Positions 1,348 to 17,188 of a stretch of 17,188 bases of DNA are shown piece after piece. The first letter of the stretch is position 1. Each line of letters opens with the position of its first letter. The notes under the pieces are model-generated. The model saw nothing but the letters and a program-made list of their open reading frames with translations, had not been told where the DNA came from and did not search any database. The stretch is from the NCBI GenBank assembly GCA_021779635.1, contig JAJYAH010000053.1, positions 1 through 17,188 of the forward strand, given 5' to 3'. The position numbers and the translations under genes are program-made. Source of the stretch: Pseudomonadota bacterium (GTDB lineage Bacteria > Pseudomonadota > Alphaproteobacteria > Rhizobiales > Xanthobacteraceae).

Positions 1348-1361
1348 TCGTCGCGTACCGC

Positions 1362-1405
1362 CGTTCGTCCCGATTGAACCTTAGGTCCGAATATCGGGGC
1401 GAACG
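1362..1405 (+). other. Stem-loop between the binding-protein gene and livH
   Basis: The arms 1362-1374 (CGTTCGTCCCGAT) and 1393-1405 (ATCGGGGCGAACG) pair over 13 positions with a single G-T wobble, around an 18-nt loop that itself holds the small palindrome ACCTTAGGT. No T-run follows, so it is not a classical intrinsic terminator. Its place between a binding-protein gene and its permease gene fits an mRNA 3'-end stabiliser or partial terminator that raises binding-protein output over membrane components. That role is inferred. Confidence 0.6.
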
Positions 1406-1452
1406 CGGGCGGTCTTTCGACGATCCTCTCGACTGAGGGTGGGGGTGCCGCT

Positions 1453-3698: not shown

Positions 3699-4447
3699 CA
3701 TCCCCCGCGATCGAACTGCGCGATGTTCAAAAGAGCTTCGGCAATGTCAACATCATCCATGATCTGAATTTGACGGTCGCCAAGGGCGAGCGCCATGCGA
3801 TCATCGGGCCGAACGGCGCCGGTAAATCGACCACTTTCAATCTGATCAGCGGCTATATCGCGCCGACCTCTGGCAGTGTTCTTTTGGAGGGCGAGGTTAT
3901 TTCTGGCTTGCTGCCTTACCAAATCAATCGCCGCGGCCTCTCGCGCAGTTTTCAGGTCACCAACGTGTTTGCCAACATGAGCGTGTGGGAGAATATCCGC
4001 TGCGCCGTGCTCTGGGCGACCGGCCACCGCTACGCATTCTGGAAAAATGTCGACAATTTGCCCGAGGTGCGCGAGCGGACGGCGCAGATTCTTCAGGACA
4101 TCAATCTGCTGCCGCGCCGGGACGTTCTGGCGGGTCTGCTCACCTACGCCGAACAGCGCGCCCTCGAAATCGGAATCACCGTGGCGGGCGGTGCTCACGT
4201 CATTCTGCTCGACGAGCCTACCGCTGGCATGAGCCACGCCGAGACCGAACGCGCGGTGGCGCTGATTCGCCGCCTTACGGAAGGCCGGACGCTTTTGATC
4301 GTCGAGCACGACATGAGCGTGGTGTTTGGCCTGGCCGATCGAATTTCGGTGCTGGTGTACGGCCACATCATCGCCTCCGGGACCCCCGACGAAATCCGCT
4401 CAGACCCAAAAGTCAAGGAAGCCTATCTCGGCGAGGAGGCCGCCTGA
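3695..4447 (+). CDS. livG: ABC transporter ATP-binding subunit LivG with a degenerate signature motif
   Basis: This 250-residue cytoplasmic ATPase of the Liv importer has Walker A GPNGAGKST (38-46), a Q-loop Gln87, Walker B VILLDEP (169-175) with the catalytic Glu174, and the H-loop His205 in LIVEHDM. The C-terminal PDEIRSDPKVKEAYLGEE is the usual LivG ending. The ABC signature position reads LTYAEQRA (149-156) where a canonical LSGGQ would stand, so both glycines are replaced. LivG proteins commonly have a Tyr at the first glycine, but Ala at the second goes further. The ATG at 3695 overlaps the livM stop, and the gene ends in TGATG shared with livF. A longer open frame beginning in livM is an out-of-frame shadow and not a fusion. 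It pairs with LivF to power uptake. Confidence 0.92.
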   Translation: MTSPAIELRDVQKSFGNVNIIHDLNLTVAKGERHAIIGPNGAGKSTTFNLISGYIAPTSGSVLLEGEVISGLLPYQINRRGLSRSFQVTNVFANMSVWENIRCAVLWATGHRYAFWKNVDNLPEVRERTAQILQDINLLPRRDVLAGLLTYAEQRALEIGITVAGGAHVILLDEPTAGMSHAETERAVALIRRLTEGRTLLIVEHDMSVVFGLADRISVLVYGHIIASGTPDEIRSDPKVKEAYLGEEAA

Positions 4448-5142
4448 TGCTGGAGGTCAAGGATCTGCACGCTTATTACGGCAAGAGTCATATCCTGCAG
4501 GGCGTGGACATCCATATCGACGCCGGGGAGGTCGTCAGTCTTCTGGGACGCAATGGCGTTGGGCGCTCCACGACGGTCAAAGCCATCATGGGCGAGGTGC
4601 CGCCGCACGGCTCGATAAAGTTCAAGGGTGAGAACATTGCCGGACTTCCGAGCTATCGGATCGCGCAGCTGGGGTTGGGCTATGTTCCGGAGCATCGCGA
4701 TATCTTTCCCGGCCTGACGGTGCGGCAAAACCTGATGCTGGGCATCAAGGATACAAGGCGTCCGGGCAAGTGGCGACTCGAAGACATGCTCGAGATGTTT
4801 CCCAACCTCGCCGCAAGGGCCGATACCGCCGCCGGCGTGATGTCGGGCGGCGAGAAGCAGATGCTGACGATTTGCCGAACGCTGATGGGCGACCCCGAAC
4901 TCGTCATGATCGACGAGCCGACCGAGGGTCTGGCGCCGATCATCGTTCAGCAGGTGGGCGACCTGATCGCGGAAATCGCCCGGCGCGGAGTGGCGATCCT
5001 GCTGGTCGAACAGAAGCTCTCGATTGCGATGCGGATATCCCATCGGGTCTACGTCATGGGCCACGGCCGCATCGTGTTCGAGGGGACGCCCGACGAACTC
5101 AAGGCCAATGCGTCCGTCCGAAAGGAGTGGCTCGAAGTCTAG
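4447..5142 (+). CDS. livF: ABC transporter ATP-binding subunit LivF with Arg in the Walker A motif
   Basis: This 231-residue ATPase has the compact length and the ending KANASVRKEWLEV typical of LivF. Walker A (34-42) reads GRNGVGRST: the invariant Lys is Arg40, encoded by CGC at 4564-4566. The signature is normal (MSGGEKQ, 132-138), and Walker B is LVMIDEP (152-158) with catalytic Glu157. The H-loop position is Gln189 (LLVEQ), which is usual in LivF. The segment YVPEHRDIFPGLTV (79-92) is the LivF form of the Q-loop region. The ATG shares one base with the livG stop, so translation is probably coupled. It is the last gene of the operon and faces dhaK convergently across 103 bases. The Lys-to-Arg change is read directly; whether it lowers ATP turnover is unknown. 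Confidence 0.92.
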   Translation: MLEVKDLHAYYGKSHILQGVDIHIDAGEVVSLLGRNGVGRSTTVKAIMGEVPPHGSIKFKGENIAGLPSYRIAQLGLGYVPEHRDIFPGLTVRQNLMLGIKDTRRPGKWRLEDMLEMFPNLAARADTAAGVMSGGEKQMLTICRTLMGDPELVMIDEPTEGLAPIIVQQVGDLIAEIARRGVAILLVEQKLSIAMRISHRVYVMGHGRIVFEGTPDELKANASVRKEWLEV

Positions 5143-5145
5143 ACC

Positions 5146-5236
5146 GAGCGCCGAGAGGCGGCTCCCATACGATGACCGCCATGACACGCATGAAATGCGC
5201 GGAACTCCCGATCGGCCGCCGTTCGCGTGTACGGCG
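5146..5236. terminator. Convergent gap with small hairpins, possible bidirectional termination
   Basis: The 103 bases between the livF and dhaK stop codons hold three short inverted repeats. The first is at 5146-5164 (GAGCGCC, GAGA tetraloop, GGC-G-GCTC with one bulged G). The second is at 5187-5199 (CGCAT gaa ATGCG). The third has CGCCG and CGGCG near 5216-5236 around a 10-nt loop. None is followed by a T-run on either strand, so any termination would be weak or factor-dependent. The position between converging operons is the main reason for the call. Confidence 0.3.
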
Positions 5237-5245
5237 CTTTGCGGA

Positions 5246-6229
5246 CTACATGCCCCAACGCAACGCCGGCGTATGAACAGGCGCGTCCCAGAGCCGCTTC
5301 ATGTCCTCGTCAACCATCGATATCGTTGCCGAACAACCGGCCATATCGAGCGAGGTGACAAAATTGCCCACCATTGATCGCGCCACGGTAATGCCGACCG
5401 GTTCGAGCAATTTGCGGACGGCATCATACATCAGATAAAGCTCCGAAAGCGGCGTCGCGCCGAAGCCGTTGATCAGCAGGATAGCCTCGCCACGCTGGCC
5501 GAGATCGGCGGCGATGGCGTTGACCATTTCGGCAGCAATGGCACCTGCCCGCATCAGCTTGACGCGGCGGCGCCCCGGCTCGCCATGGATGCCAACCCCG
5601 ATCTCCATCTCGTCCTCAGCGAGGTCGAAGGTTGGTTTGCCGGCTGCCGGAACCGTGCAGCTCGTCAGAGCTATCCCGATCGAACGCGTAGCCGCATTGA
5701 CGCGATCGCCAAGCGCCTTCAGGTCAGCGAGATCGTGCCCCTGTTCGGCGGCCGCACCCAGGATTTTCTCCACAATCAGCGTGCCGGCAACGCCGCGCCG
5801 TCCGGTCGAAAAGGTCGAAGTTTCCACCGCTACGTCGTCGTCGGTAATCACGGTCGCAATCGGCTTGCCCGACATCTCGCGCGCCATCTCGAAGTTCATG
5901 ACGTCGCCTTCGTAATTCTTGACGATGAACAATACGCCGCCGCCGGTGTCCGCAGCCTCAGCAGCGGCGAGGATGAGATCCGGCGTCGGGGAGGTGAAAA
6001 CCTGACCGGGACAGGCGGCATCCAGCATGCCGAACCCGACAAATCCGGTATGAAGTGGCTCGTGCCCGGAGCCCCCACCCGATATCAACGCCACCTTGCC
6101 GGGCTTGAGATGCCGACGCTGCACGAACGGTGCATGCTCGCCCATACGCACAATATCGGAATGCGCCGCACAGAATCCGGCGAGGCTTTCGTTCATCGCG
6201 TTCTCGACGTCGTTGATCAGTTTCTTCAT
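5246..6229 (-). CDS. dhaK: PTS-dependent dihydroxyacetone kinase, substrate-binding subunit DhaK
   Basis: This 327-residue protein is full length for DhaK. It binds dihydroxyacetone, or a similar short ketose, as a hemiaminal on a histidine and holds it for phosphate transfer from DhaL-ATP, giving dihydroxyacetone phosphate. The substrate His is His215 in GVGIHGEPG. The N-terminal site has GGGSGHEP (51-58) with His56, and NYEGDVMNF (105-113) with Asp109, matching the positions of the active-site His56 and Asp109 of E. coli DhaK. The start is supported by GGGAGG at 6240-6235, five bases before the spacer base and ATG. It lies 30 bases after the small helix-turn-helix gene and closes the operon; it is far from dhaL, unlike the common dhaKLM order. 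A related specificity such as erythrulose cannot be excluded. Confidence 0.95.
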   Translation of the reverse strand: MKKLINDVENAMNESLAGFCAAHSDIVRMGEHAPFVQRRHLKPGKVALISGGGSGHEPLHTGFVGFGMLDAACPGQVFTSPTPDLILAAAEAADTGGGVLFIVKNYEGDVMNFEMAREMSGKPIATVITDDDVAVETSTFSTGRRGVAGTLIVEKILGAAAEQGHDLADLKALGDRVNAATRSIGIALTSCTVPAAGKPTFDLAEDEMEIGVGIHGEPGRRRVKLMRAGAIAAEMVNAIAADLGQRGEAILLINGFGATPLSELYLMYDAVRKLLEPVGITVARSMVGNFVTSLDMAGCSATISMVDEDMKRLWDAPVHTPALRWGM

Positions 6230-6259
6230 TAAGACCTCCCCATTAGCATCGCCTCGACG

Positions 6260-6679
6260 TCAGCTATCCTCGATCAGCCTTGCGACTTTCTCTGCGAACT
6301 CGCTCAAGAGCGTATCCAGCCTGTGGTTCTTCTGTTCGCTTCCAAGATCCGGCAGCATGAGGGTGAGACGCCTGCCTCGCTCCCGTTCCTTCAGCAGAAG
6401 CAGCCGCCGCGGATGCGCCCGGTGGTAGGCTTCGAGAAACCGGTCCCTCTCCTGCGCCGAGAAATGGCAGACCTGGATAATGGGATGGACGTGCTGGGCC
6501 GGGATCGGCGTCTGATAGGCCGGGTTGGCAATCTGCGTGATGAAGCTGCGATTCTTGCCGAGTGCTTCGGCCAGGCGCTGGCGTGTGCCGGAAGGCCGCC
6601 GATCGAGCACATCGCGAAGGATAGCCTTGTAGGCAGCGATCAGATCCTGTGATCCTGCCGGGGTCGCCTGCGTGCTCAT
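6260..6679 (-). CDS. Small helix-turn-helix protein, possible operon regulator
   Basis: I do not recognise a named family for this 139-residue protein. Residues 31-56 (GTRQRLAEALGKNRSFITQI, then ANPAYQ) look like a Cro/C1-type helix-turn-helix. The middle (60-90) is rich in His and aromatic residues (AQHVHPIIQVCHFSAQERDRF). The C-terminal third is strongly basic around 88-105 and ends in a predicted amphipathic helix (119-137) that could dimerise. The ATG at 6679 overlaps the stop of the enzyme I gene in an ATGA, and an upstream in-frame start would run deep into that gene, so I chose the coupled start. No clear ribosome-binding site precedes it. Placed between enzyme I and DhaK in a phosphorelay operon, it may sense the state of DhaK, DhaL or HPr and control transcription. 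That is inference from context only. Confidence 0.8.
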   Translation of the reverse strand: MSTQATPAGSQDLIAAYKAILRDVLDRRPSGTRQRLAEALGKNRSFITQIANPAYQTPIPAQHVHPIIQVCHFSAQERDRFLEAYHRAHPRRLLLLKERERGRRLTLMLPDLGSEQKNHRLDTLLSEFAEKVARLIEDS

Positions 6680-8286
6680 GCGGCAGAACCGGAATAGCGG
6701 GTGATCGCAGCCCTCACAGGCCCCAGCGCTCCGGGTGCGACCGAAAGAATGCGCAAGCCCTGATCGAGCAGCGCGGCGACATGCGCGGGATCGCCGGCAA
6801 GATCGCCACACAGGCTGGTTTCGCGGCCGGAGCGATCCGCATGGTCAACGACATGCCCGATCAAGTTGAAGACGGCCCGCGAAGGGCGGGCAAGATCGGC
6901 GAGTTCAGGCTCGTCCCGGCTCGCCGCCGCCATATACTGGATCAGATCGTTGCTGCCGATGGAAAAGAAGTCGGCATTGAAGTCCTCGATGGTGAGCGCC
7001 GCCGCCGGCACTTCGACCATCATGCCGAGCGGCGGCAATTGCGCTTCCTGGCCCTCGCGGAGCAATTCCTCGACGGCCTGTTCTAGCAGCGCGCGGCACC
7101 GGTCTAGTTCCTCCGGCACCGTGACCATGGGAATCATCACCTTGAGATTGCCTCCGACGGCAGCGCGGGCCAACGCCCGCAACTGCTCGCGAAACACGTC
7201 CAGATGCCGCAACGAGAGCCGCACACCCCGCACGCCCAGAAATGGATTGATGTCTCCGGCTCGCGTCAAGCCCGCAATCGGCTTGTCGCCTCCAGCGTCG
7301 AGGGTACGGATCGTCACCGGCTTGCCGGCGGCCCACTCGACCATGCGCTGGTAGATCCGGTATTGCTCTTCCTCGGTTGGCAGTTGCTCCCGACCCTGGA
7401 ACAGAAACTCGGTCCGCATCAGGCCGATGCCGTCGACATTGGCAGGATCAAGTTCCTCAAGTTCGGCGAGACCCGTTACATTGATCATCACGCGAACCAG
7501 TTCGCCAGCAGCCGTCAGCGCGGGGCCACGGAACGATGCCGCCGCCTGCCGCTGCTTTGACTGTTCGGCACGACGTTGACAATAAACCGTTCGCGTATCG
7601 CTGTCGGGATCGACAATGAGAAGTCCCGCGTCGCCGTCGAGCAGGGCATCGCTGCCACCTTCGAGATGATTGACGTCAACTCCCACGATCATCGGCACGC
7701 CGCGCGACCTGGCTAGAATGGCGACATGGCTGCTGGGGCTTCCCCGGCGCAATATCAAGCCGCCGTCACGCCAATCGCTGGCTAGAAACATCGAAGGAGG
7801 CATATCGTCGGCCGCAACGATGACCCCGGGCGGCACGGTTTGATCCATTTCGCCTGCCAGATGCCTCAGCACGCGATCGCGGAGGTCGCGCAAATCGGAG
7901 GCCCGGGCGCGGAAATAGGGATCTTCCGCCTGATCGTAGGATGCGATTTCCGGATCGATCGCAGCACTCCAGGCCCGCGTGGCAACCTCGCCGCCGGCGA
8001 TGCGGGCGAACCCCGGCGCTGAAAGATTGTCGTCTTCGAGAAGTGCAATCTGAAACGAGAGAATCGCTTCCGCATCAGCGTCCTCGACCTGGCCGGCGAG
8101 CGCGGTGAGATCCGCCTGCGACGCCGCGAGCGCATCGACAAGGGCCTGATGCTCCTCCGCCGGAGATCGTTTTTGACGGGCCTCATGCCTGGCGGGAGCC
8201 AAGCGCACGAGCGGTCCCAGCGCGATTCCGGGAGCGGCAGGCCTCCCCTCGATGCGATGGGCCGTTCGATGCGTTCTATCGTCCAT
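6676..8286 (-). CDS. ptsI: Phosphoenolpyruvate-protein phosphotransferase (enzyme I) dedicated to the Dha system
   Basis: This 536-residue enzyme I starts the relay by taking phosphate from PEP and passing it to HPr. It has the expected order. An N-terminal helical HPr-binding region is followed by the phosphohistidine domain with SPSSHVAILAR (183-193), active His187. A TIM-barrel PEP domain then carries GIGLMRTEFLF (286-296), IRTLDAGGDKP (326-336), GSNDLIQY (444-451) and SLCGDLAGD (491-499) with the catalytic Cys493. It begins directly with the enzyme I core and has no GAF domain, so it is not the nitrogen-PTS enzyme PtsP. It is slightly shorter than the E. coli enzyme (575 residues). The ATG has GGAG about nine bases upstream. 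It overlaps the HPr gene by 11 bases and the next gene by 4. Confidence 0.93.
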   Translation of the reverse strand: MDDRTHRTAHRIEGRPAAPGIALGPLVRLAPARHEARQKRSPAEEHQALVDALAASQADLTALAGQVEDADAEAILSFQIALLEDDNLSAPGFARIAGGEVATRAWSAAIDPEIASYDQAEDPYFRARASDLRDLRDRVLRHLAGEMDQTVPPGVIVAADDMPPSMFLASDWRDGGLILRRGSPSSHVAILARSRGVPMIVGVDVNHLEGGSDALLDGDAGLLIVDPDSDTRTVYCQRRAEQSKQRQAAASFRGPALTAAGELVRVMINVTGLAELEELDPANVDGIGLMRTEFLFQGREQLPTEEEQYRIYQRMVEWAAGKPVTIRTLDAGGDKPIAGLTRAGDINPFLGVRGVRLSLRHLDVFREQLRALARAAVGGNLKVMIPMVTVPEELDRCRALLEQAVEELLREGQEAQLPPLGMMVEVPAAALTIEDFNADFFSIGSNDLIQYMAAASRDEPELADLARPSRAVFNLIGHVVDHADRSGRETSLCGDLAGDPAHVAALLDQGLRILSVAPGALGPVRAAITRYSGSAA

Positions 8287-8557
8287 CCTGGAAATCTCCG
8301 TCGACCAGCGTCACCAGCGCTTCCAATGCGGCCTTCGCGTCGCTCCCCTCGGCGCGAAAATAAATAGTCGAATCCTTCGGTGCCTTGGTCGCCATGACCT
8401 TGACGATGCTCTTGGCGTCGACCCACGGCCCGTCCGGCGACAGGCCGAGATCGATGCGCGATTCAAAGGCCTTCGCGAGCTTGGTCAGCTTGACCGAGGG
8501 GCGCGCATGCAACCCGACCTCATGCCGCATCAGCACCGACGCCCGAAACTTGTTCAT
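8276..8557 (-). CDS. HPr phosphocarrier protein of the Dha phosphorelay
   Basis: This 93-residue protein has the HPr fold signature: GLHARPSVKLTKLA contains the active-site His17, which accepts phosphate from enzyme I and passes it to DhaM. The second conserved block is VDAKSIVKVMA, with Ser50 at the position that HPr kinase phosphorylates in organisms that have that control. A GTG lies three bases upstream at 8560; I prefer the ATG at 8557, with a GGGG ribosome-binding core eight bases before it, but the two starts differ by one residue. The stop is inside the enzyme I coding start (11-base overlap), so the two are probably made in matched amounts. The neighbours show that its partner is DhaM and not a sugar permease. 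Confidence 0.92.
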   Translation of the reverse strand: MNKFRASVLMRHEVGLHARPSVKLTKLAKAFESRIDLGLSPDGPWVDAKSIVKVMATKAPKDSTIYFRAEGSDAKAALEALVTLVDGDFQDGR

Positions 8558-8572
8558 CACGCTTGCCCCGCC

Positions 8573-8965
8573 TCAGACCGGTGTCAGCTCTTCGGCGGTG
8601 CGACGCACGGCCTCGAGCGTGGCGCCGGAAGCTGCTTCCGTCGCCGCCATGACCGCGCCCTCGACCACAGGCGCATTGCAGACGACGACGCGGTTGCGGC
8701 GCGATTCCGGCAACATCTCGATCGCCATCTCGCTATTGGTCTCCGCGCCGCCGAGATCGACGAGAATGGCAACGCCGCGTTCGGACCACGCCCGATCGAT
8801 CGCCTTCATGATCGCTTCGACGCTGGTACCCAACCCGCCGTCCGGGTCCCCGCCGCACCAGCCGAGCGGCACTTCGCGACCAACCATCTGCTCAACCATC
8901 AGCGCGGTGCCCCGGGCCACATCCGCCGAGTGAGACACGATAACGATTCCGACATTTTCGCTCAT
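8573..8965 (-). CDS. dhaM: DhaM, EIIA(Man)-like phosphotransfer subunit of dihydroxyacetone kinase
   Basis: This 130-residue protein is a single EIIA domain of the mannose/DhaM type. It opens with VGIVIVSHSADVARG, where His12 is the phosphorylated residue (His9 in E. coli DhaM). It also has the conserved GGLGTSVEAIMKAI (43-56) and VAILVDLGGAETNSEMA (65-81) segments. Its role is to take phosphate from HPr-His and rephosphorylate ADP bound in DhaL. E. coli DhaM carries extra HPr and enzyme I-like domains; here these are separate genes that follow immediately. The start overlaps the dhaL stop as ATGA, and 15 bases separate its stop from the HPr start. The assignment is strong because DhaL and DhaK are in the same operon. 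Confidence 0.93.
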   Translation of the reverse strand: MSENVGIVIVSHSADVARGTALMVEQMVGREVPLGWCGGDPDGGLGTSVEAIMKAIDRAWSERGVAILVDLGGAETNSEMAIEMLPESRRNRVVVCNAPVVEGAVMAATEAASGATLEAVRRTAEELTPV

Positions 8966-9576
8966 GCCAATCCTTCCATGACGTCTGCGACCGCATCGAC
9001 GATCAACGCAGAGGATCGTGCGCCGGGGTCCATGTGACCAATGCTGCGTTCGCCCAGAAACGACGCGCGACCGCGGATTGCCCTCATTGGAATGGTTTTC
9101 TCGGCAGCGGCCCAGGCCGTCGCCTTCAGCCGTGCCGCCACGCCGCCTCCCCCTTCGCGCAAGACGCCGAGCACCGGAAACAGCACGTCGAGCATTGTTT
9201 TTTGACCGACATCGGACTTTCCTCGCGCCTTGACCGCGTCGATCGCAGTGGCAAACGCATCGGCCGCCTGCTCGCGGGTCACCTCGTCTGCCAGCGACTT
9301 GCCGAGCGACATGAACAATGTCCCGTAAAGTGGACCCGAGGCCCCGCCAACCTTCATGACGAGGGTGGTGCCGACACCCTTCAGGGACTCGCCGAGGTTC
9401 TTGGCGGAGAGCTCATCGGCCGTCGCCAGAACAGCTTCAAAGCCGCGCCGCATGTTGATCCCATGGTCGCCGTCGCCGATGGCGCGGTCGAGGTCGGTCA
9501 ATTCATCCGCACTCGCAATGACACGATGCGCCACCGTTTCAAACAGAAGTTTGCGGGTCCGTCGATCCACCATCAT
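8962..9576 (-). CDS. dhaL: DhaL, ADP-binding subunit of PTS-dependent dihydroxyacetone kinase
   Basis: This 204-residue protein is full length for DhaL. It keeps ADP/ATP as a bound cofactor that is rephosphorylated by DhaM, and it transfers the gamma-phosphate to the ketose on DhaK. The metal-nucleotide site is clear: DLDRAIGDGDHGINMRRGF, with Asp30, Asp35 and Asp37 at the same numbers as in E. coli DhaL. The glycine-rich KVGGASGPLYGTLFM (75-89) and the lid segment VGQKTMLDVL follow. Two ATGs lie in tandem (9576 and 9573); the first overlaps the stop of the ABC ATPase gene as ATGATG. A GGGGG sequence lies about six bases upstream. The overlap with the ABC ATPase gene ties kinase synthesis directly to transporter synthesis. 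Confidence 0.94.
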   Translation of the reverse strand: MMVDRRTRKLLFETVAHRVIASADELTDLDRAIGDGDHGINMRRGFEAVLATADELSAKNLGESLKGVGTTLVMKVGGASGPLYGTLFMSLGKSLADEVTREQAADAFATAIDAVKARGKSDVGQKTMLDVLFPVLGVLREGGGGVAARLKATAWAAAEKTIPMRAIRGRASFLGERSIGHMDPGARSSALIVDAVADVMEGLA

Positions 9577-10610
9577 GCACGCCCCCGTAATCCGTCGGTG
9601 CCAATCCGGTTACCGGACTGATCGAAATAAAGCGGTTCGGCAAACTGGAGTGAGACCTGATCCCCTGCCTTGAGCTGCTGGACAGGGTCCGCGAGGGTCA
9701 CGAGCGAGTGGGTAGCGAGCTTGAGATGAACGTGGTTCTGATCGCCGAGATGTTCCACCCAATGCACCTGCGCCAGTGGTCCGGGATGATCCGCCGGAGA
9801 TATCCTGATGTGTTCAGTCCGCAAGCCCACGGTTTGCACATGCGCCGGCACGGCATCGCTGCCGAGGAGCGCCGCCGGAATGAGGTTGATAGTCGGTGTC
9901 CCAAGCCGGCTAGCCACATAGGTACTGTTCGGCCGCTCATAAATCTCCCTGGGCGTCCCGAGTTGAATCAGTACCCCTTCGTTCATCACGCCGATCCGGT
10001 CCGCCATCGTCATGGCCTCGGTCTGGTCATGCGTCACGTAGAGGATGGTCGTTCCCAACTCGCGCTGGATGCGCTTGAGCTCAAGCCGCAATTCGGCGCG
10101 AAGCTTGGCATCCAGCGAAGACAGCGGCTCGTCCATTAGATAGACCGCCGGCTCGCGGACCAGCGCCCGGCCGATGGCGACCCGCTGCATTTCGCCGCCG
10201 GAAAGAGCGGTAGCTCGATTGCCAAGCTTCTGCCCGATATGAAGCAGTTCCGCGACCTGATGGACCCTGCGGCGAACCACCTCCTCGTTCATGCGTCGCG
10301 CCGGCGACCGCAACGGAAAGGCCAAATTGTCGTAGACGGTCAGATGAGGATAAAGCGAATATTGCTGAAATACGAACGCGACGTCGCGCTCGGCCGGCAC
10401 TTCGTCCGTTACCACGCGCCCCTGGATCACCACATTGCCTCGATCGGGCTGTTCCAGGCCGGCAATCAAGCGCAGCGTCGTCGTCTTTCCCGCACCGGTC
10501 GGGCCCAGCAGCACGACAAACTCGCCGTCCGCGATGGAAAGGGAAAGGCCGCGGACGGCTTCGACCGCGCCGAAGCTTTTGCTGACGTCTACCAGCGCGA
10601 CTTCAGCCAC
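9573..10610 (-). CDS. Carbohydrate/polyol ABC importer ATP-binding subunit (MalK/UgpC type), first copy
   Basis: This 345-residue ATPase energises the importer. It has Walker A GPTGAGKTT (36-44), Q-loop FQQ (81-83), signature LSGGE (136-140), Walker B VYLMDEP (156-162) and H-loop His194 in YVTHDQ. A C-terminal regulatory TOBE-like part follows from about residue 235, including VGLRTEHIRI. I chose the GTG at 10610 because it has a near-perfect AAGGAGG five bases upstream (10622-10616). An ATG at 10625 would sit upstream of that site and lacks its own. The start overlaps the end of the second ATPase gene by eight bases. The protein is clearly different from that second ATPase, so the complex probably holds an ATPase heterodimer, as in the rhizobial glycerol importer GlpSTPQV. 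Confidence 0.9.
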   Translation of the reverse strand: MAEVALVDVSKSFGAVEAVRGLSLSIADGEFVVLLGPTGAGKTTTLRLIAGLEQPDRGNVVIQGRVVTDEVPAERDVAFVFQQYSLYPHLTVYDNLAFPLRSPARRMNEEVVRRRVHQVAELLHIGQKLGNRATALSGGEMQRVAIGRALVREPAVYLMDEPLSSLDAKLRAELRLELKRIQRELGTTILYVTHDQTEAMTMADRIGVMNEGVLIQLGTPREIYERPNSTYVASRLGTPTINLIPAALLGSDAVPAHVQTVGLRTEHIRISPADHPGPLAQVHWVEHLGDQNHVHLKLATHSLVTLADPVQQLKAGDQVSLQFAEPLYFDQSGNRIGTDGLRGRA

Positions 10611-11700
10611 GGCTTCCTCCTTCATAAAGCGACGAATGCAGCGCCTGCCCGCTGGTTGCGTCGAACAGCGAGAGCCTGTCCGGCCGCAACGCAAGCCCCA
10701 CAGTCTCACCCACCCGAACCGCTTTACTGGAAGGCAACCGCGCCTTTACCCGGCCATTGGCCGTGACGATGGTAACGATTTGTGTGGTGCCGAGATACTC
10801 GGCGCCAATCACGCGGCCTCGCAGCGGCGAGGCATCGGCGAACGACACATTCTCCGGCCGTACGCCAAGCGCGAACCGGCCCTCGGCGCGATCCTCGAAC
10901 AGCTCCGGCATCTCAACAGAGGCGCCGTCGATCCGGATATGGCGATCGCCGCTCCGCAGTGAGGTCTGGACGTTGATAAAGCTCATCGGCGGCGCACCGA
11001 TGAAGTCCGCGACGAACATCGTGCCTGGACGATCATAGATCTCTTGCGGCGTTCCGATTTGCTCGACGCGACCCTGGTTCATGATGGCGATACGGTCGGC
11101 CATCGCCATTGCCTCGAGCTGGTCGTGGGTGATGTAGACGGTGGTCGCATCGATGCGGTCGTGCAGTTCACGCAACTCGCCGCACATCAACCTGCGAAAC
11201 TCCGAATCCAGCGCGCCCAACGGCTCATCCATCAAAAAAGCCTTGGGGCGGCGTACAATGGCGCGACCAAGGGCGACGCGCTGCCGGTCGCCGCCGGATA
11301 GCCCGCCGACCCGGCGCTCCAGCAGATGGTCGATCCGCAGCAATCTCGCTGTTTCCTCGACGCTTTGCCTGATCTCGGCGCGCGGGAAATTCTGACATCG
11401 CAGCGGAAAGCCGATATTCTGGCGCACGTTCATATGTGGATAGAGCGCAAATAGCTGAAATACAAAGGCGATGTCGCGCGCTGACGCCGGCAGCGCCGTC
11501 ACGTTCTCGCCATCGAGCAGAATGCGACCGGAGGTCGGCAGTTCGAGCCCTGCGGTCATGCGCAATGTCGTGGTTTTGCCGCAGCCCGAGGGGCCGAGAA
11601 TGACAAAGAACGAGCCGTGATCGACCGTGAAGTTCACGCCCTTGACGGCGGCGAACGTTCCGAACGTCTTGGCTACGCTTTCGAGCTTGATCTCTGCCAT
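10603..11700 (-). CDS. Carbohydrate/polyol ABC importer ATP-binding subunit (MalK/UgpC type), second copy
   Basis: This 365-residue ATPase has Walker A GPSGCGKTT (36-44), Q-loop FQLFALYPH (81-89), signature LSGGDRQ (134-140), Walker B AFLMDEP (154-160) and His192 in YITHDQ. A C-terminal TOBE/OB part follows with LGVRPENVSF and GLALRPDRLSLFD, the usual MalK-type ending. All catalytic residues are present. The ATG at 11700 lies five bases after the stop of the small membrane protein gene; a longer in-frame extension to 12099 would overlap two genes and is not real. Its 3' end carries the ribosome-binding site of the next ATPase gene. With the other copy it should drive the two permeases encoded upstream; substrate specificity is not visible from the ATPases. 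Confidence 0.93.
   Translation of the reverse strand: MAEIKLESVAKTFGTFAAVKGVNFTVDHGSFFVILGPSGCGKTTTLRMTAGLELPTSGRILLDGENVTALPASARDIAFVFQLFALYPHMNVRQNIGFPLRCQNFPRAEIRQSVEETARLLRIDHLLERRVGGLSGGDRQRVALGRAIVRRPKAFLMDEPLGALDSEFRRLMCGELRELHDRIDATTVYITHDQLEAMAMADRIAIMNQGRVEQIGTPQEIYDRPGTMFVADFIGAPPMSFINVQTSLRSGDRHIRIDGASVEMPELFEDRAEGRFALGVRPENVSFADASPLRGRVIGAEYLGTTQIVTIVTANGRVKARLPSSKAVRVGETVGLALRPDRLSLFDATSGQALHSSLYEGGSRG
10616..10622 (-). promoter_or_regulatory. Strong internal ribosome-binding site that fixes a GTG start
   Basis: Read on the minus strand this is AAGGAGG, followed by the 5-nt spacer AAGCC and GTG. It lies inside the last codons of the preceding ATPase gene and decides the start of the next one at 10610 against the ATG at 10625. 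Confidence 0.75.
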
Positions 11701-11705
11701 GGCGC

Positions 11706-11909
11706 CTAATCCGGAAAATGGCTGACGATCACAAATCCCAGCGTCCCGGCCAGGATGGTGACGAAGGAATAGCTGTACAGGTCCAGCGAAAGCGGCTGCA
11801 TCAACATCAGGACGCCGAGGCCGATCAACGCCATCGCGACGGCTTCGCAAGGGCCGCGACGGAGCCAGAGTGGCCATCTCGATGCGGAATGCGCGATCCT
11901 TTCCGTCAT
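11706..11909 (-). CDS. Small two-helix membrane protein inside the ABC importer operon
   Basis: This 67-residue protein has a basic N-terminus (about 1-20, with four Arg) and two predicted membrane helices, near 21-38 (CEAVAMALIGLGVLMLMQ) and 46-63 (YSFVTILAGTLGFVIVSH), joined by a short turn. The positive N-terminus suggests both ends face the cytoplasm. The ATG at 11909 overlaps the permease stop as ATGA, and the stop is five bases before the next ATPase gene, so it is built into the operon and is not a chance frame. I do not recognise a family. Rhizobial glycerol ABC operons carry a small membrane protein (DUF2160) in a comparable place, but this sequence does not look like that family to me. 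A role as an accessory subunit of the importer is plausible. Confidence 0.8.
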   Translation of the reverse strand: MTERIAHSASRWPLWLRRGPCEAVAMALIGLGVLMLMQPLSLDLYSYSFVTILAGTLGFVIVSHFPD

Positions 11910-12859
11910 TTGCGCACCGCCCCAAAGGTGATGCCGCGTAACAGATGCCGACGCAGCAAGATGGTGAAGCACAGGATCGGGATGAAAAACAGCGTCGTCC
12001 CGGCAGCCACCGCGGGCCAGTCCTGACCTCCCTCGCCGATGATGAACGGAATGAAGGGCGGCATGGTCTGCGCGTCGCCGCTGGTGAGCAGAACCGCAAA
12101 GGCGTACTCGTTCCAGGCGAAGATCAGGCAGAAGATCGCGGTGGCCGCGATGCCGGTGGTCGCCTGCGGCAGCACCACCTTGAAGAAGGCCTGAAGGCGC
12201 GTATAGCCGTCGACCATCGCAGCCTCTTCATACTCGCGCGGAATTTCGTCCATGAATCCCTTCAATAGCCACACCGCCAGCGAGACATTCACCGCCGTGT
12301 ACAACAGGATCATGCCGAGCTTGGTATCGGTCAATCCGAGGTAGCGGAACATCAGGTAGATCGGGATCGCCACCGCGATCGGCGGCATCATCCGTGTCGA
12401 CAGGATGAAGAACAGCAGATCGTCAGCAAGCGGCACGCGAAATCGCGAGAATGCATAGGCCGCGATGGTGCCGAAGCACACCGCCAGAAAGGTCGAGCCG
12501 AAGCCGATCACCATCGAATTCACAAAGCGCGGCACCACCTTCGATGGCCCGCCAATCACCATGTTGCGTGAGCGCACCAGACGCTCATACCAGCTCTGCG
12601 GCGGCGGCAGGCTGGCGAGAAATTCAGGCGTCTGCCGCGAGCGCGTCGTGAAAAGATTGACGTAGCCTTCGACCGAAGGTTCGAACAAGATCTTGGGCGG
12701 ATAGGCGATCGAATCGGGCGGCGTCTTGAAACCGGTCAGGAATATCCACAGCAACGGCAGAATGGTCACCACCGCGTAGGTGACGACGAGAAACGAGGCG
12801 ACCATCTTCGACAGTGGCGATGGCTCGGCCACGGAATGTGCGGTGACGGGCGTTCTCAT
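11906..12859 (-). CDS. Carbohydrate/polyol ABC importer permease, MalG type
   Basis: This 317-residue inner-membrane protein has about six membrane segments: near 20-42, 114-136, 147-170, 180-200, 237-258 and 285-303. The ATPase-coupling EAA motif is at 211-232 (EEAAMVDGYTRLQAFFKVVLPQ), placed near the C-terminal third as in binding-protein-dependent sugar permeases. A long periplasmic loop (about 43-112) precedes the second segment. The end LRRHLLRGITFGAVRK is typical of MalG-like permeases. The ATG at 12859 overlaps the stop of the MalF-type gene as ATGA, and the longer frame to 12961 only extends into that gene. With the MalF-type partner it forms the translocation path. Confidence 0.93.
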   Translation of the reverse strand: MRTPVTAHSVAEPSPLSKMVASFLVVTYAVVTILPLLWIFLTGFKTPPDSIAYPPKILFEPSVEGYVNLFTTRSRQTPEFLASLPPPQSWYERLVRSRNMVIGGPSKVVPRFVNSMVIGFGSTFLAVCFGTIAAYAFSRFRVPLADDLLFFILSTRMMPPIAVAIPIYLMFRYLGLTDTKLGMILLYTAVNVSLAVWLLKGFMDEIPREYEEAAMVDGYTRLQAFFKVVLPQATTGIAATAIFCLIFAWNEYAFAVLLTSGDAQTMPPFIPFIIGEGGQDWPAVAAGTTLFFIPILCFTILLRRHLLRGITFGAVRK

Positions 12860-13800
12860 CGCTGCTTCACCCGATTGAGGGCTTTGACATAGATATTGGC
12901 GGCGCCAAACACCGTGACAAAGAGAATGATGGCCAAGGCCGACGAATAGCCGGTACGCCATTTCTCGAAAGCCTCGCGTTTCAGGGTGATCGACGCCACC
13001 TCCGTGGTCGAACCCGGGCCGCCCGAGGTGAGCAGATTCACCATGTCGAACATCTTGAAGTTTTCGATAGCCCGAAAAAGAATGGCGAGCATCAGGAACG
13101 GCATCACCATCGGCAGCGTGATCGACCAGAATTGCCGCCAGGGCGATGCGCGATCGACCTCGGCCGCCTCATAGATGTAATCCGGGATTGAACGCAAACC
13201 CGCAAGACAGATCAGCATGACATAAGGCGTCCACATCCAGGTATCGACCAGAATGATCGACCATGGTGCCAGCCGCACGTCGCCGATCATCTGAAACGAG
13301 CTCGGATCGATTCCGGTCAATAGCGCGACCGCGTTGTTGAATAGCCCGATCTGCGGCTGGAGCAGAAATGTCCAGAAGTTCCCGACCACCGCCGGGGAGA
13401 GCATCATCGGCAACAGAATGATGGTGGTCCAGAAGCTGTGACCGCGGAAGCGGCGGTTGATCAGAAGCGCCAGCCCGAACCCCAGGACCAGTTCGAGCAC
13501 GATCGACCACAGCACGAAATGAGCTGTGGCCTGCATCGCCTGCCACACGTCGGAGTCAGTCAAAATGTCGCGGTAGTTGTCGAGGCCGACATACGCGATC
13601 GGCGCATTCGGACGATTGGCGCGATAGTTGGTGAAGGAGAGCTGGATCGTCCACAACAACGGGAAGATGTTGATCGCCAGCAGGAGCAGCACCGATGGCG
13701 TAATGAACAGCCACGCGATCGCCTTGTCGGACATTCCGCCGAGTCGCATTTTCAGTCGGTGCGGTGTCCGGGTGACAGCCCGCTCGGCGAGAGTGCTCAT
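12856..13800 (-). CDS. Carbohydrate/polyol ABC importer permease, MalF type
   Basis: This 314-residue protein has six predicted membrane segments (about 28-50, 93-115, 124-145, 179-200, 229-245, 286-305). The EAA coupling motif lies at 211-230 (EAAEVDRASPWRQFWSITLP). The conserved NLLTSGGPGSTTEV (255-268) is a hallmark of this permease class. I chose the ATG at 13800 because AGGA (13809-13806) lies five bases upstream. A GTG at 13818 would add six residues but has no ribosome-binding site. The gene starts 84 bases after the binding-protein stop, with a strong stem-loop between them, and overlaps the MalG-type gene by four bases. Substrate choice is probably set by this pair with the binding protein. 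Confidence 0.93.
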   Translation of the reverse strand: MSTLAERAVTRTPHRLKMRLGGMSDKAIAWLFITPSVLLLLAINIFPLLWTIQLSFTNYRANRPNAPIAYVGLDNYRDILTDSDVWQAMQATAHFVLWSIVLELVLGFGLALLINRRFRGHSFWTTIILLPMMLSPAVVGNFWTFLLQPQIGLFNNAVALLTGIDPSSFQMIGDVRLAPWSIILVDTWMWTPYVMLICLAGLRSIPDYIYEAAEVDRASPWRQFWSITLPMVMPFLMLAILFRAIENFKMFDMVNLLTSGGPGSTTEVASITLKREAFEKWRTGYSSALAIILFVTVFGAANIYVKALNRVKQR

Positions 13801-13841
13801 CTGAGTCCTGTTGTTCACAGATCGGGATTCGCCAAAGGAGA

Positions 13842-13872
13842 TGGTCTCCCGATGCGAAAGATCGGGAGACCA
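13842..13872 (-). other. Perfect 12-bp stem-loop between binding-protein and permease genes
   Basis: TGGTCTCCCGAT at 13842-13853 is the exact reverse complement of ATCGGGAGACCA at 13861-13872, with a 7-nt loop. No T-run follows on the minus strand. A second ATCGGGA at 13821-13827 could pair with TCCCGAT at 13847-13853 as an alternative, shorter stem. It stands 12 bases after the binding-protein stop, the classical place for a hairpin that protects the upstream mRNA or limits readthrough into the permease genes. The function is inferred. Confidence 0.65.
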
Positions 13873-13884
13873 CGGTTGATCAAG

Positions 13885-15210
13885 CTAGATCTTGCCTTCT
13901 TCCTTGAACACCTTTTGCCAATCCTTGACCAGGAGATCGAGGGCTTCCTTCGCGGTTCCCTTATCGGCCACGACATAGTCATGGACGCGCTTCTGCATGT
14001 CGAGCAGAAGTGTCGCGTAGGAGGGTTCGGCCCAGAAGTCCTTTACGATACCCATCGACTCCAGGAAGTCAGCAGCAAACGGCGCACTCTTCGGGAAACT
14101 CGGATCGTTGAGCACCGCCTTGAGGCAGGAATATCCGCCAAGCGCCCACCACTTCTTTTGAACATCGGGCTGCGCGAACCATTTGATATAGGCGAGCGCG
14201 TCGTCCTTGTGTTCCGAGTAGGAGACGACCGAGATCCCCTGCCCGCCGAGCTGAGTAAAGTGAAACTTCTCCTTCGGATTGACGAAGAAGCCGATCTTGT
14301 CGCCGCCGACATTGGGATCCTTGTGGAGACCGGGAAAGAACGCGAAGAAGTTCATCTGCATCGCGACCTGCCCGGACTTGAAGGCGTCGAGGCCCTCCGA
14401 CATGTAGGCGTTGCTCATGCCCGGCGCCGTGCAGCACTTGTACAGCGACTTGTAGAATTCCAGCCCCTGGACCGCTTCCGGTGAATTGACGAAGCCCTCC
14501 ATGTGGTAGGGCTTCTTCGGGTCGTCGTATTGAAAGCCCCAATCATAGAGCGCGTTGGTCACGCCCATGGTGATGCCTTCGGAGCCGCGCTCGGTATAGA
14601 TATAGGCTCCGTAGACTTTCTTGCCGTCGATCTCCCTTCCCTGGAAAAACTCGGCGATCTGCTTGAGTTCATCCCAGGTCTTGGGAGGGGCAAGGTCGCG
14701 TCCGTACTTCTTCTTGAAGTCCGCCTGAATTTCCGGTCGCGCGAACCAATCCTTGCGATAGGTCCAGCCGATCGCGTCGCCCATCGCCGGCAACGCCCAG
14801 TAGTTCGGCGTGTTCTTGGGCCACTCGGAATAGCCGACCACCGTCGCCGGCATGAAATCGTCCATTGAGATTCCTTCCTTGGCGAAGAAATCGTTGAGTT
14901 TAACGTAGTGGCCGTTCTCGGCGGCCCCGCCGATCCACTGGCTGTCACCGATGATGACGTCGCAAAGTTTTCCCTTTGAATTCAGTTCGTTGAGAAACCG
15001 GTCCGCGTAGCTCGTCCAGGGGACGAACTCATATTTCATTTGAATTCCGGTTTTGGCGGTGAAGTCTTTCGAAAGCTCCACCAACGCGTTGGCCGGATCC
15101 CACGCCGCCCAGCACAAGGTCAGTTGCTTGGTCTGGGCAACCGCCGGACTTCCCATACACGAGGCAACAACAACCGCGGTCGCCCCCAACGCACGCATCA
15201 TCTGGATCAT
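13885..15210 (-). CDS. Family 1 extracellular solute-binding protein of the Dha-linked ABC importer
   Basis: This 441-residue protein is a family 1 (sugar/polyol) binding protein, the usual partner of MalFG-type permeases. The N-terminus is a signal peptide with a likely cleavage after Ala25 (AVA|QT). A lipobox-like VASC at 15-18 leaves open a lipoprotein form. Typical features include the opening QLTLCWAAWDPANALVELS, the ITLP-like central hinge region with YWALPAMGDAIGWTYRKDWF, and a Gly- and aromatic-rich ligand cleft (FAFFPGL, QGISVVSYSEH). It has several cysteines, including a CC pair near KCCTAPG. The ATG at 15210 has AGGGAGG (15224-15218) seven bases upstream; longer frames lack this. 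It is the first gene of the operon. The kinase genes downstream suggest dihydroxyacetone, glycerol or a similar short polyol or ketose as ligand, which is inference. Confidence 0.92.
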   Translation of the reverse strand: MIQMMRALGATAVVVASCMGSPAVAQTKQLTLCWAAWDPANALVELSKDFTAKTGIQMKYEFVPWTSYADRFLNELNSKGKLCDVIIGDSQWIGGAAENGHYVKLNDFFAKEGISMDDFMPATVVGYSEWPKNTPNYWALPAMGDAIGWTYRKDWFARPEIQADFKKKYGRDLAPPKTWDELKQIAEFFQGREIDGKKVYGAYIYTERGSEGITMGVTNALYDWGFQYDDPKKPYHMEGFVNSPEAVQGLEFYKSLYKCCTAPGMSNAYMSEGLDAFKSGQVAMQMNFFAFFPGLHKDPNVGGDKIGFFVNPKEKFHFTQLGGQGISVVSYSEHKDDALAYIKWFAQPDVQKKWWALGGYSCLKAVLNDPSFPKSAPFAADFLESMGIVKDFWAEPSYATLLLDMQKRVHDYVVADKGTAKEALDLLVKDWQKVFKEEGKI

Positions 15211-15231
15211 TACACAACCTCCCTGTTGTTT

Positions 15232-15247
15232 GCAGGCGATTGCCTGC
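15232..15247 (-). other. Leader hairpin just before the binding-protein ribosome-binding site
   Basis: GCAGGC (15232-15237) and GCCTGC (15242-15247) form a perfect 6-bp stem with a 4-nt loop. On the minus strand it ends seven bases before AGGGAGG, so it would sit at the edge of the ribosome-binding region in the operon leader and could stabilise the 5' end or affect initiation. Confidence 0.4.
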
Positions 15248-15325
15248 CTGTCCTGCCGATCACACTTCGCCGTTCGGCGTCTATGCACGCAGACTTAAAT
15301 CCCGCTTCAGCAAAACCGCGGGAAT

Positions 15326-15489
15326 GATGTTTAGTATTATTGTTAAGCATCAGCCTTTCACTAAACATTTTAGGAGTCAATGGGCCTCTTGCTCGCTTGC
15401 GCAAAACGAAGTTGTTGCTGCACTGCAACCATTAGCGCGAGCACTTCCACGGAAGTCGAAAGAAACGTGATGAGGGATGTTGTTTAGTA
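15326..15489 (-). promoter_or_regulatory. Repeated TGTTTAGT motif, candidate operators
   Basis: TGTTTAGT occurs at 15328-15335 and 15481-15488 on the + strand and inverted (ACTAAACA) at 15360-15367. Around the first copy, 15326-15351 forms an imperfect palindrome with GATG and CATC ends. The inverted copy overlaps the perfect palindrome CTAAA-CAT-TTTAG (15361-15373). Three copies of an AT-rich octamer in a GC-rich intergenic region suggest binding sites for a repressor or activator. No transcription factor gene other than the small helix-turn-helix protein of the same operon is in the window. Confidence 0.45.
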
Positions 15490-15572
15490 ATTTGGATGAT
15501 CAGCCGCCCCGCGCATTTCGCGCCGGTACCGCTGATGCTGCCGCCGGTAAATGTCGGAGCCTGTTCGGAGTC

Positions 15573-15591
15573 GAATGCCTTTAGGGCATTC
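15573..15591 (-). terminator. Hairpin 58 bases after the monooxygenase gene, possible weak terminator
   Basis: GAATGCC (15573-15579) pairs with GGCATTC (15585-15591) over seven bases, with a 5-nt loop that can close further by a T-G pair. There is no T-run after it on the minus strand. It is the best stem near the end of the monooxygenase gene, and it would separate that gene from the operon downstream on the same strand. Confidence 0.3.
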
Positions 15592-15648
15592 ATCGCGAGG
15601 ATATGCGTGGCGGCTTATTTTTTCGGCCACTTCGACAGGCGTTGCGGT

Positions 15649-17115
15649 TTAGGCGAGCTCGAAATCCTCGAGCATCGGGGCGCGCATGTCGTGTTCGAAT
15701 CTTTCGAAGGACCACGGATAGGACGCCACATTTCCCTTGGCGTCGATGTACCAGCTTCGGCATCCGGACGCCCAGATCGAGCCGGCCACTTTCTCCCGGA
15801 GCGCGGCGTTGTAGGCTTCGGTCGGCTCGCTCCTCGCCGAGATTTCCCCTACCTGGCCCGACTGGAGCAAACGCACGAGCTGAAGCACATAATTCAGCTG
15901 ACGCTCGATGGTCATCAGAAATGAAAAGTTTCCGATCGGGCTGTGCGGCCCTCCCAGCATGAAAAAGTTCGGAAAATCCGGAACGCTGATGGCCCGGTAG
16001 GCCTTATTTCCATCAGCCCAGGCCTCATCGAGCGTCCTGCCGCCGCGACCTGAAACCATCATCGGGCGAAACAGTTTGTGGGTGTTGAAGCCGGTCGCGA
16101 GAACCAGGCAATCCAGCCCGTGCAAGCGGCCATCCGCCATGCGCACGCCGTCGGCTTCGATGCGATCGATTTTGGTGTCGACCAGCTCCGCGTTCGGCTT
16201 CTGGATCGCCTGATAAAAGCGATCCGAGATAATCAGGCGCTTGCATCCCATCTTGTAGCCGGGCGTCAGCCGCGCCCGCAGGTTCGGATCGACGACGCTG
16301 TCGAGATTGGCCTGACAGGCCTGCGCCATCGCTGCGTAAACCTCGGCGCTTTCACCAGCGAGAGCGGCACAGAAGGTATCGTTGAAGGCTTGCGCGAGAT
16401 AGTCGTAGCGCGCCTGCATCAGGGAAGGATCCGTCCGGTATTGCTGCCGTTTTGCTTCCGAATATCGCACATTGGGTTGCGGCATGATCCATTTCGCGGT
16501 GCGCTGGAACAGAAAGACCCTTTCCACTTCATCGACAATGGCCGGCAGAATCTGGCAGGCCGTCGAGCCCGTGCCGATGATCCCGACGCGCTTGCCCTTC
16601 AGCGACACGCCGTGATCCCAGCGCGCCGTGTGAAAGGCCGGTCCTTTGAATTCCTTCAACCCGCGGATATCGGGGTAAACCGGATGATGCAGAACGCCTG
16701 TCGCCGTCACGACGACATCGAACGCGCCTTCATTTCCCTGGCTCGTTTGAATATGCCATTGATGGTCGCGATAAACCGCTTCGGTCACTTCGCAGGAATA
16801 GTGGATGAGTTGATTCACATCATACTTTCTTGCGACATCCTTCAGGTAAGCGTGAATTTCCGGCCCGGGAGCGTATCGCTGGGTCCATTCGGGATTCGGC
16901 GCAAAAGAATACCGGTACAAATGCGACGGCACGTCGCATGCGAGACCCGGATAGGTATTGTCCCGCCAGGTGCCGCCGAGATCGGCCGCCTTTTCAAAAA
17001 TGGCGATGTCGGAAATGCCGAGCTCTCTCAGCTTGATCGCGGTCACGATGCCGGATGCACCGGCACCGATGACGGCTAGCCGCAGTGTCCTGGCCTTGGC
17101 CGTGCTTCGGTCCAT
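15649..17115 (-). CDS. Flavin-containing monooxygenase of the Baeyer-Villiger type
   Basis: This 488-residue FAD/NADPH enzyme should insert one oxygen atom into a ketone, or oxidise a heteroatom, in the cytoplasm. The FAD-binding Rossmann motif is GAGASG (17-22), and the flavin-site stretch GGTWRDNTYPGLACDVPSH (47-65) follows. The Baeyer-Villiger fingerprint is FKGPAFHTARWD (156-167), matching FxGxxxHxxxW(P/D), and the NADPH-binding GIIGTGSTA (178-186) comes next. A KR pair in MGCKRLIISD and the late ATGF motif (LDCLVLATGFNTHKLF) are also present. Length fits single-component enzymes of the cyclohexanone/phenylacetone monooxygenase group. The ATG at 17115 has a modest GGCGGA upstream. It is a lone gene here, 438 bases upstream of the ABC-Dha operon on the same strand; its substrate is unknown and any link with that operon is weak. 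The 73 bases upstream to the window end show no gene. Confidence 0.9.
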   Translation of the reverse strand: MDRSTAKARTLRLAVIGAGASGIVTAIKLRELGISDIAIFEKAADLGGTWRDNTYPGLACDVPSHLYRYSFAPNPEWTQRYAPGPEIHAYLKDVARKYDVNQLIHYSCEVTEAVYRDHQWHIQTSQGNEGAFDVVVTATGVLHHPVYPDIRGLKEFKGPAFHTARWDHGVSLKGKRVGIIGTGSTACQILPAIVDEVERVFLFQRTAKWIMPQPNVRYSEAKRQQYRTDPSLMQARYDYLAQAFNDTFCAALAGESAEVYAAMAQACQANLDSVVDPNLRARLTPGYKMGCKRLIISDRFYQAIQKPNAELVDTKIDRIEADGVRMADGRLHGLDCLVLATGFNTHKLFRPMMVSGRGGRTLDEAWADGNKAYRAISVPDFPNFFMLGGPHSPIGNFSFLMTIERQLNYVLQLVRLLQSGQVGEISARSEPTEAYNAALREKVAGSIWASGCRSWYIDAKGNVASYPWSFERFEHDMRAPMLEDFELA

Positions 17116-17188
17116 TGCAGTTCCGCCCGGGCTGGTGCTCAGATCTCCTTTATATTCGCGATTTCATCGGCACCGCAACGGTCGCGCA

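Follow-up and report, generated by a model that had tools for sequence, protein, structure and literature searches.

A twelve-gene alphaproteobacterial operon joining an ABC importer to a dihydroxyacetone kinase relay, with a candidate regulator and predicted operator

The twelve-gene operon

We analyzed a stretch of 17,188 nucleotides (the window) from a Pseudomonadota bacterium of the Xanthobacteraceae (GenBank assembly GCA_021779635.1, contig JAJYAH010000053.1, positions 1 to 17,188 of the forward strand). Twelve open reading frames (ORFs) on its minus strand, between positions 5246 and 15210, encode a complete CUT1-type ATP-binding cassette (ABC) importer and a complete relay of phosphoenolpyruvate (PEP), enzyme I (EI), HPr, DhaM and DhaL/DhaK, the last two being parts of a dihydroxyacetone (Dha) kinase. 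In order of transcription the genes encode a binding protein, two permeases, a small protein, two ATPases, DhaL, DhaM, HPr, EI, a helix-turn-helix (HTH) protein and DhaK (Table 1). The original prediction, made from this DNA alone, had described the same two complete halves in twelve genes on one strand, and all of its ORFs are in place with protein families that agree. It had also placed overlaps of 4 to 11 bases at most junctions, which is nearly right: seven of the eleven junctions overlap (by 4, 4, 23, 4, 4, 11 and 4 base pairs) and four are gapped (66, 5, 12–15 and 30 base pairs), and the one overlap outside that range, 23 base pairs counted from the first ATG, joins the two ATPase genes. 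As predicted, the start of dhaL overlaps the stop of the second ATPase gene, the two sharing 4 base pairs (9573–9576), and no EIIC/D of the phosphotransferase system (PTS) was found among the 18 window genes scanned. Scans of the window with Rfam and for tRNAs gave no matches.

In Pfam and NCBIfam the binding protein matches SBP_bac_1 and both permeases match BPD_transp_1, while both ATPases are of the UgpC/MalK type but score under the UgpC cut-off, so this is an assignment of type only. An SBP_bac_1 protein, MalF/MalG-like permeases and a MalK/UgpC-like ATPase with a TOBE domain are together the marks of a CUT1-type carbohydrate importer. With 94% identity, the binding protein matches one from Bradyrhizobium erythrophlei, which probably places the window in that group; its structure model has a pLDDT of 63.5. 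The small protein matches no Pfam family at E <= 0.001; it is found in 103 of the 104 assessable importer loci described below. DhaK (TIGR02363, 463.9 bits, cut-off 406.25), DhaL (TIGR02365, 220.5 bits, cut-off 138.3) and DhaM (TIGR02364, 133.5 bits, cut-off 98.25) all exceed the curated cut-offs of the DhaKLM families, and HPr (TIGR01003, 65.5 bits, cut-off 47.9) and EI (TIGR01417, 354.9 bits, cut-off 341.7) exceed those of theirs.

Table 1. Features of the operon and of the region preceding it (window coordinates)
Feature	Position	Strand	Remarks
Extracellular solute-binding protein	13885..15210	-	441 aa, SBP_bac_1/SBP_bac_8
ABC permease 1	12856..13818	-	MalF/UgpA-like
ABC permease 2	11906..12859	-	MalG/UgpE-like
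Small protein	11706..11909	-	67 aa, hydrophobic by eye, without Pfam family
ABC ATPase 1	10603..11700	-	UgpC/MalK type with TOBE_2
ABC ATPase 2	9573..10625	-	UgpC/MalK type with TOBE_2
dhaL	8962..9576	-	PTS-type nucleotide loop GDGDHGINM
dhaM	8573..8965	-	EIIA-Man-like phosphoryl donor
HPr	8276..8560	-	Start GTG 8560 or ATG 8557
PTS enzyme I	6676..8286	-	
HTH protein	6260..6679	-	139 aa, lambda-repressor-like fold prediction, proposed regulator
dhaK	5246..6229	-	IHGEPG motif
Predicted operator	15328..15367	-	TGTTTAGT 15367-15360, degenerate CTTAACA 15347-15341, ACTAAACA 15335-15328
Possible -35 element	15375..15380	-	TTGACT just before the operator; weak, consensus scan reports no promoter here
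PhaR(AniA)-like box	15415..15428	-	TTGCAGTGCAGCAA, fits YGCRNYGCR
Third exact half-site	15481..15488	+	TGTTTAGT, further upstream

A PTS chain that acts as a kinase without EIIC is established DhaKLM biology. The window has the same phosphotransfer parts as Escherichia coli DhaKLM, and both the motif of DhaK that carries the histidine with a covalent substrate-binding role and the PTS-type loop of DhaL align with their E. coli counterparts. However, DhaM of E. coli is a single longer protein in which HPr and a portion of EI are also included, the neighboring regulator there is DhaR, and the 8-kb stretch examined contains no ABC importer. The window importer shares its list of parts with the rhizobial glycerol importer GlpSTPQUV, which likewise comprises a binding protein, a small protein and two each of permeases and ATPases; the small subunit of GlpSTPQUV is a DUF2160 protein, whereas that of the window falls in no Pfam family at the threshold given above. 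No recognizable homolog of DhaR or of DhaS-DhaQ lies in the operon: its sole putative regulator, the HTH protein, has no Pfam or NCBIfam match at E <= 0.001, and DhaK stays below the DhaQ cut-off.

The arrangement is not new, because the twelve-gene cluster and its EI/HPr/Dha-kinase part are both already in print. The same twelve gene types occur in the same order, by locus number, as blr3566–blr3577 of Bradyrhizobium diazoefficiens USDA110 (PMC5017801). Loss of blr7984 raises all twelve jointly, by 4.2- to 24.3-fold (PMC5017801, Table 2), and they are lower in bacteroids (0.17–0.60 for the wild type); the discussion in that paper considers ABC uptake together with PTS and DhaK parts. Its text, as far as it was covered, proposes neither a regulator encoded in the cluster nor an operator, a swap of donors or a particular substrate, and blr3576, at the position of the window HTH gene, appears there as a 'hypothetical protein'. 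Clusters of EI, HPr and Dha kinase genes in M. loti and B. japonicum, which like the window have a dedicated ptsH and ptsI beside the kinase genes, were described in 2008 (PMC2405797), where the covered text does not use the term 'ABC transport'. A further paper names blr3566 once in its covered part (PMC8632152). Among the matches listed for the cluster, its regulator, its operator and its substrate, we recognized PMC5017801 and PMC2405797 as describing the cluster and found no statement on substrate or control.

Kinase arrangements in related loci

For comparison, 109 distinct loci of the binding protein were assembled, comprising the 80 closest of at least 591 matches (L001–L080), five hand-picked from a listing of plasmids (L081–L085) and 24 from even samples of 385 and 369 genomes (L087–L106 and L111–L114); L086 duplicates L005 and was not counted. 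Five contigs (L004, L010, L012, L059 and L079) end before the kinase genes are complete and were left out, both from the 104 assessable loci and from the HTH-negative promoters discussed below. In all 104, the importer is followed by a Dha kinase. Together with the co-induction of the twelve B. diazoefficiens genes (PMC5017801), this supports one part of the original interpretation, that the two halves work as one functional unit. Chance gene order is ruled out by the recurrence of the order across alphaproteobacteria.

The kinase genes themselves are of three kinds. A PTS relay, dhaL-dhaM-HPr-EI-hth-dhaK, is present in 66 loci (the window not included), eight of which have a fused kinase as well; 26 have split DhaL and DhaK without DhaM, and 12 have only a fused kinase of the ATP type. 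The DhaL loop reads GD(G/A)DHGxNM in 66 of 66 PTS loci and GDGDHIFN in 25 of the 26 split loci, and GDGDTGST occurs in 19 of 22 fused-kinase matches, being absent from the aligned part of the other three. A DhaM encoded elsewhere in the genome that might serve the non-PTS versions was not found in any of eight Burkholderiales genomes or 11 alphaproteobacterial genomes with such versions; in the same even sample of 22 alphaproteobacterial importer genomes, all 11 with PTS loci have it. One point overlooked in the original prediction is that the relay is dispensable, as 38 of the 104 loci do without it.

At least five switches of kinase type are needed on a tree of the binding proteins (64 rows, dereplicated from 105). 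Both groups with only a fused kinase adjoin a locus that has relay and fused kinase together (L090 and L081), which suggests that the second kinase was gained before the relay was lost. These patterns suggest that the importer and a Dak-family kinase form the constant pair, and that the phosphoryl donor is exchangeable among a PEP relay, a split form and a fused ATP-type form, the split DhaL/DhaK and the other non-PTS kinases presumably using ATP. Within the literature searched, this swap of donors appears to be new. It might be objected that importer and kinase share a promoter through history only and serve separate substrates, as two operons (L108 and L109) combine a Dha kinase, relay and HTH gene without an importer. 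We regard this as very improbable: none of the 104 importer loci lacks the kinase despite the repeated replacement of its type, and all twelve genes are co-induced in B. diazoefficiens (PMC5017801).

Some loci have unusual arrangements. The importer-less Dha operon of L109 (7285–12225) has two dhaM genes around EI and an HTH gene. In Rhizobium rosettiformans (L084, 24157–32202), DhaK and DhaL are encoded a second time, accompanied by an FGGY kinase and another ABC importer downstream on the opposite strand. A plasmid of Microvirga ossetica (L122, 10896–14418) has an incomplete copy of the operon, from the end of dhaM to dhaK, downstream of an IS5-family transposase gene, and a full copy is carried by another plasmid of this organism (L123).

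The helix-turn-helix protein and its predicted operator

All 66 PTS loci have the HTH gene and none of the other 38 does, a distribution that ties it to the relay and not to the importer. A census of 385 alphaproteobacterial genomes detected it in 13, each of them one of the 14 that have DhaM above the cut-off (Fisher p = 2.6e-23, ignoring relatedness). Two of these 13 (G057 and G369) have the relay and HTH together where the importer family is not present. A near-complete scoring of candidates in 43 genomes found three HTH proteins. A LacI homolog lies no further than 2.5 kb from the start of the binding-protein gene in 31 of 38 non-PTS loci versus four of 66 PTS loci; the regulator would thus usually change along with the donor, HTH for LacI.

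When 36 members of the HTH family were compared with Pfam, nothing scored better than E 0.009, and HTH_3, HTH_19 and HTH_31 were reached only at E 0.05–0.18 by one or two members each. The top Foldseek matches for the structure model (pLDDT 82) are lambda cI and restriction-controller C-proteins, with probabilities of about 1.0 and a best E-value of 0.085. Residues H63, C71, H72 and H89 are invariant in the 36 aligned proteins and are thereby candidates for sensing or for phosphorylation. The protein collection holds more than 5,000 relatives, and the 120 listed are named only 'hypothetical' or 'uncharacterized'.

In an unbiased word count of promoters of about 400 base pairs, using dereplicated subsets of 41 and 22 sequences, the top word was TGTTTAGT/ACTAAACA, found in 36 of the 41 HTH-positive promoters. 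Over all promoters of at least 250 base pairs, the exact half-site is present in 55 of 66 that are HTH-positive (the window and 65 loci) versus none of 36 verified to be HTH-negative; with one mismatch allowed these counts become 66 of 66 and three of 36. A dyad of two half-sites, spaced by 11–12 base pairs and with at most three mismatches in 16 positions, occurs in 50 of the 66, in none of the 36 and in one of 660 base-shuffled promoters. In the 65 HTH-positive loci there are 96 sites in 26,195 base pairs of promoter against five in 1,309,275 base pairs elsewhere, a density about 960-fold higher. Two of the 40 promoters counted as HTH-negative alongside the density count (L004 and L079) contain exact sites; both belong to the loci whose contigs end early and are not among the 36 verified as HTH-negative.

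Nine loci outside the discovery set also carry sites. Both HTH-positive importer-less operons have them just before the first Dha gene (L108 at 8991 and 9146, L109 at 7118), and all seven further plasmid loci have the dyad with at most one mismatch per half-site, six with an exact half-site. The partial Microvirga copy L122, which does not include the operon start, has no site. Among 18 HTH-positive genomes, four have the exact palindrome, once each, at this operon.

As the HTH gene occurs in all PTS loci and only there, with promoter sites in the same loci, the HTH protein is probably the regulator of the operon. The original prediction had named the gene without giving it a role. A scan for promoters and terminators reported two promoter-like sites in the window versus 2.3 expected, none at the operator; the position of the predicted operator just after TTGACT suggests that the HTH protein may act there as a repressor. 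Within the literature searched, both regulator and operator appear to be new.

Several observations weigh against this assignment. Promoters are probably richer in AT than genes, and this difference in base composition would account for part of the excess over whole loci, so the HTH-negative promoters are the better control. Even there, however, one-mismatch half-sites turn up (the three of 36 above), and 16 of the 66 HTH-positive promoters lack the dyad at the given spacing and mismatch limit, the spacing being variable. Five of the seven plasmid loci come from Rhizobium or Sinorhizobium and are kin to discovery loci. The exact palindrome is missing from 14 of the 18 HTH-positive genomes and occurs once, at an unrelated place, in one of 18 HTH-negative genomes. 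The fold matches of the HTH protein are weak by E-value, a 0.9-Mb genome (G184) has DhaM without HTH as the sole exception to their co-occurrence, and the census of 385 genomes scored at most ten candidates per genome, so that misses are possible.

The putative site could also belong to another regulator that co-occurs with the operon. The HTH protein would then act otherwise, for instance through protein contact with the relay enzymes, and an unlinked regulator would read TGTTTAGT; the variable spacing of the dyad and the LacI homologs near four PTS loci fit such a case. We consider it unlikely, because the site follows the HTH gene into the two importer-less operons, exact sites are absent from all 36 promoters where HTH is absent, and the HTH protein is predicted to be lambda-repressor-like.

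If the HTH protein is indeed the regulator, it might, more speculatively, be a new PTS-linked type that senses the charge of the relay through EI, HPr, DhaM or DhaL, possibly by H63, H72 or H89, and switches the operon by the balance between PEP and incoming ketone. Such sensing would account for the absence of HTH from those of the covered lineages in which another kinase replaces the relay, with LacI usually taking over. A second possible input is suggested by a candidate box for PhaR (AniA), whose consensus YGCRNYGCR has been described for S. meliloti (PMC12542648). In a stricter form the box is present in 22 of 66 HTH-positive versus none of 40 HTH-negative promoters, and its density there is about 60 times that of the remaining sequence of the loci. 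Control of the operon by carbon storage is possible.

Substrate and proposed mechanism

The original prediction had inferred dihydroxyacetone or another short ketose or polyol as the substrate, which on our analysis is a candidate. For dihydroxyacetone as the species phosphorylated, every kinase arrangement is of the Dak family and the twelve-gene operon encodes no other metabolic enzyme. The import of dihydroxyacetone or another short ketone as such has, in our estimate, about even odds, and dihydroxyacetone is the simplest reading.

Other evidence points to a larger substrate. The nearest solved relatives of the MalE-like binding protein are mostly sugar binders: Lin1841 (5ysb), whose ligand we take to be a beta-glucan, a trehalose/maltose-binding protein and, further down, SmoF, which binds sulfoquinovosyl-glycerol. 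In addition, 12 of the 109 loci encode, close to the importer, a homolog of 2-hydroxy-3-keto-glucal hydratase (611 bits against PDB 8ro4) together with a Gfo/Idh/MocA oxidoreductase (L075 5777–8012, L094 16462–18715, L104 2579–4787, L114 14983–17204 and eight more), with all kinase types represented; only the hydratase lies inside the stretch covered in L092. The pair is found in 11 of the 24 evenly sampled loci and in one of the 80 closest. We presume that it belongs to a 3-keto-glucoside pathway, and in some lineages it speaks for a larger sugar. A glycoside or keto-sugar would then be imported and the ketone held by DhaK released inside the cell, with no transport of free dihydroxyacetone. 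A hydratase homolog is indeed present in 27 of 39 importer genomes versus three of 37 others, sets that were not matched for size (24 of 33 versus three of 15 at 3 Mb or more). However, 12 of the 39 importer genomes, including two of Bradyrhizobium (G001 and G003), lack it at E <= 1e-60, and in three of seven other contexts the pair lies near different ABC importers and is therefore a general module. Import of a larger sugar that yields a short ketone seems less probable to us than direct import, and some other imported substrate less probable still. Among the matches listed, the literature on 3-keto-glucal held nothing on point.

In three alphaproteobacterial genomes of 1.4 Mb (L104, L105 and L106, with loci of 33–35% GC), the importer and split DhaL/DhaK have the hydratase and oxidoreductase genes divergently adjacent. 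A flank census, covering 126 ORFs of 24 loci and the first 25 of 105 families, contradicts the idea that the loci never have sugar-converting enzymes nearby. Two neighbors of the window operon were rejected as parts of the system. A branched-chain/urea-type ABC importer operon (112–5142, plus strand) converges on dhaK, and a flavin-containing monooxygenase gene (15649–17115, minus strand) lies upstream in the same direction. Among the 80 closest loci, most of which extend only 1–2 kb past dhaK, neither a liv homolog of at least 50% identity nor any homolog of the monooxygenase was found.

The reading that we favor, with a probability of roughly 0.7, is a self-contained operon for uptake and activation, consisting of an importer, a PEP-relay Dha kinase, an HTH regulator with a predicted operator, and an exchangeable phosphoryl donor. 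The binding protein and ABC importer would bring in a carbohydrate at the expense of ATP. Inside the cell, DhaK would hold a ketone, most simply dihydroxyacetone, for phosphorylation by DhaL, which by analogy with E. coli DhaKLM would be recharged by a dedicated chain from PEP through EI and HPr to DhaM. The phosphorylated product would enter triose-phosphate metabolism. The HTH protein would bind the paired TGTTTAGT/ACTAAACA sites before the binding-protein gene and control the operon, probably as a repressor.

On this account, an operon of Bradyrhizobium, many other alphaproteobacteria and Burkholderiales that was reported but unexplained becomes a testable system with a predicted regulator and operator. 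Its relatives provide a natural series that combines a single importer with three different kinase arrangements, which indicates that the PEP relay and other donors are interchangeable around one transport step. The family of more than 5,000 HTH proteins is likewise marked as one of probable regulators.

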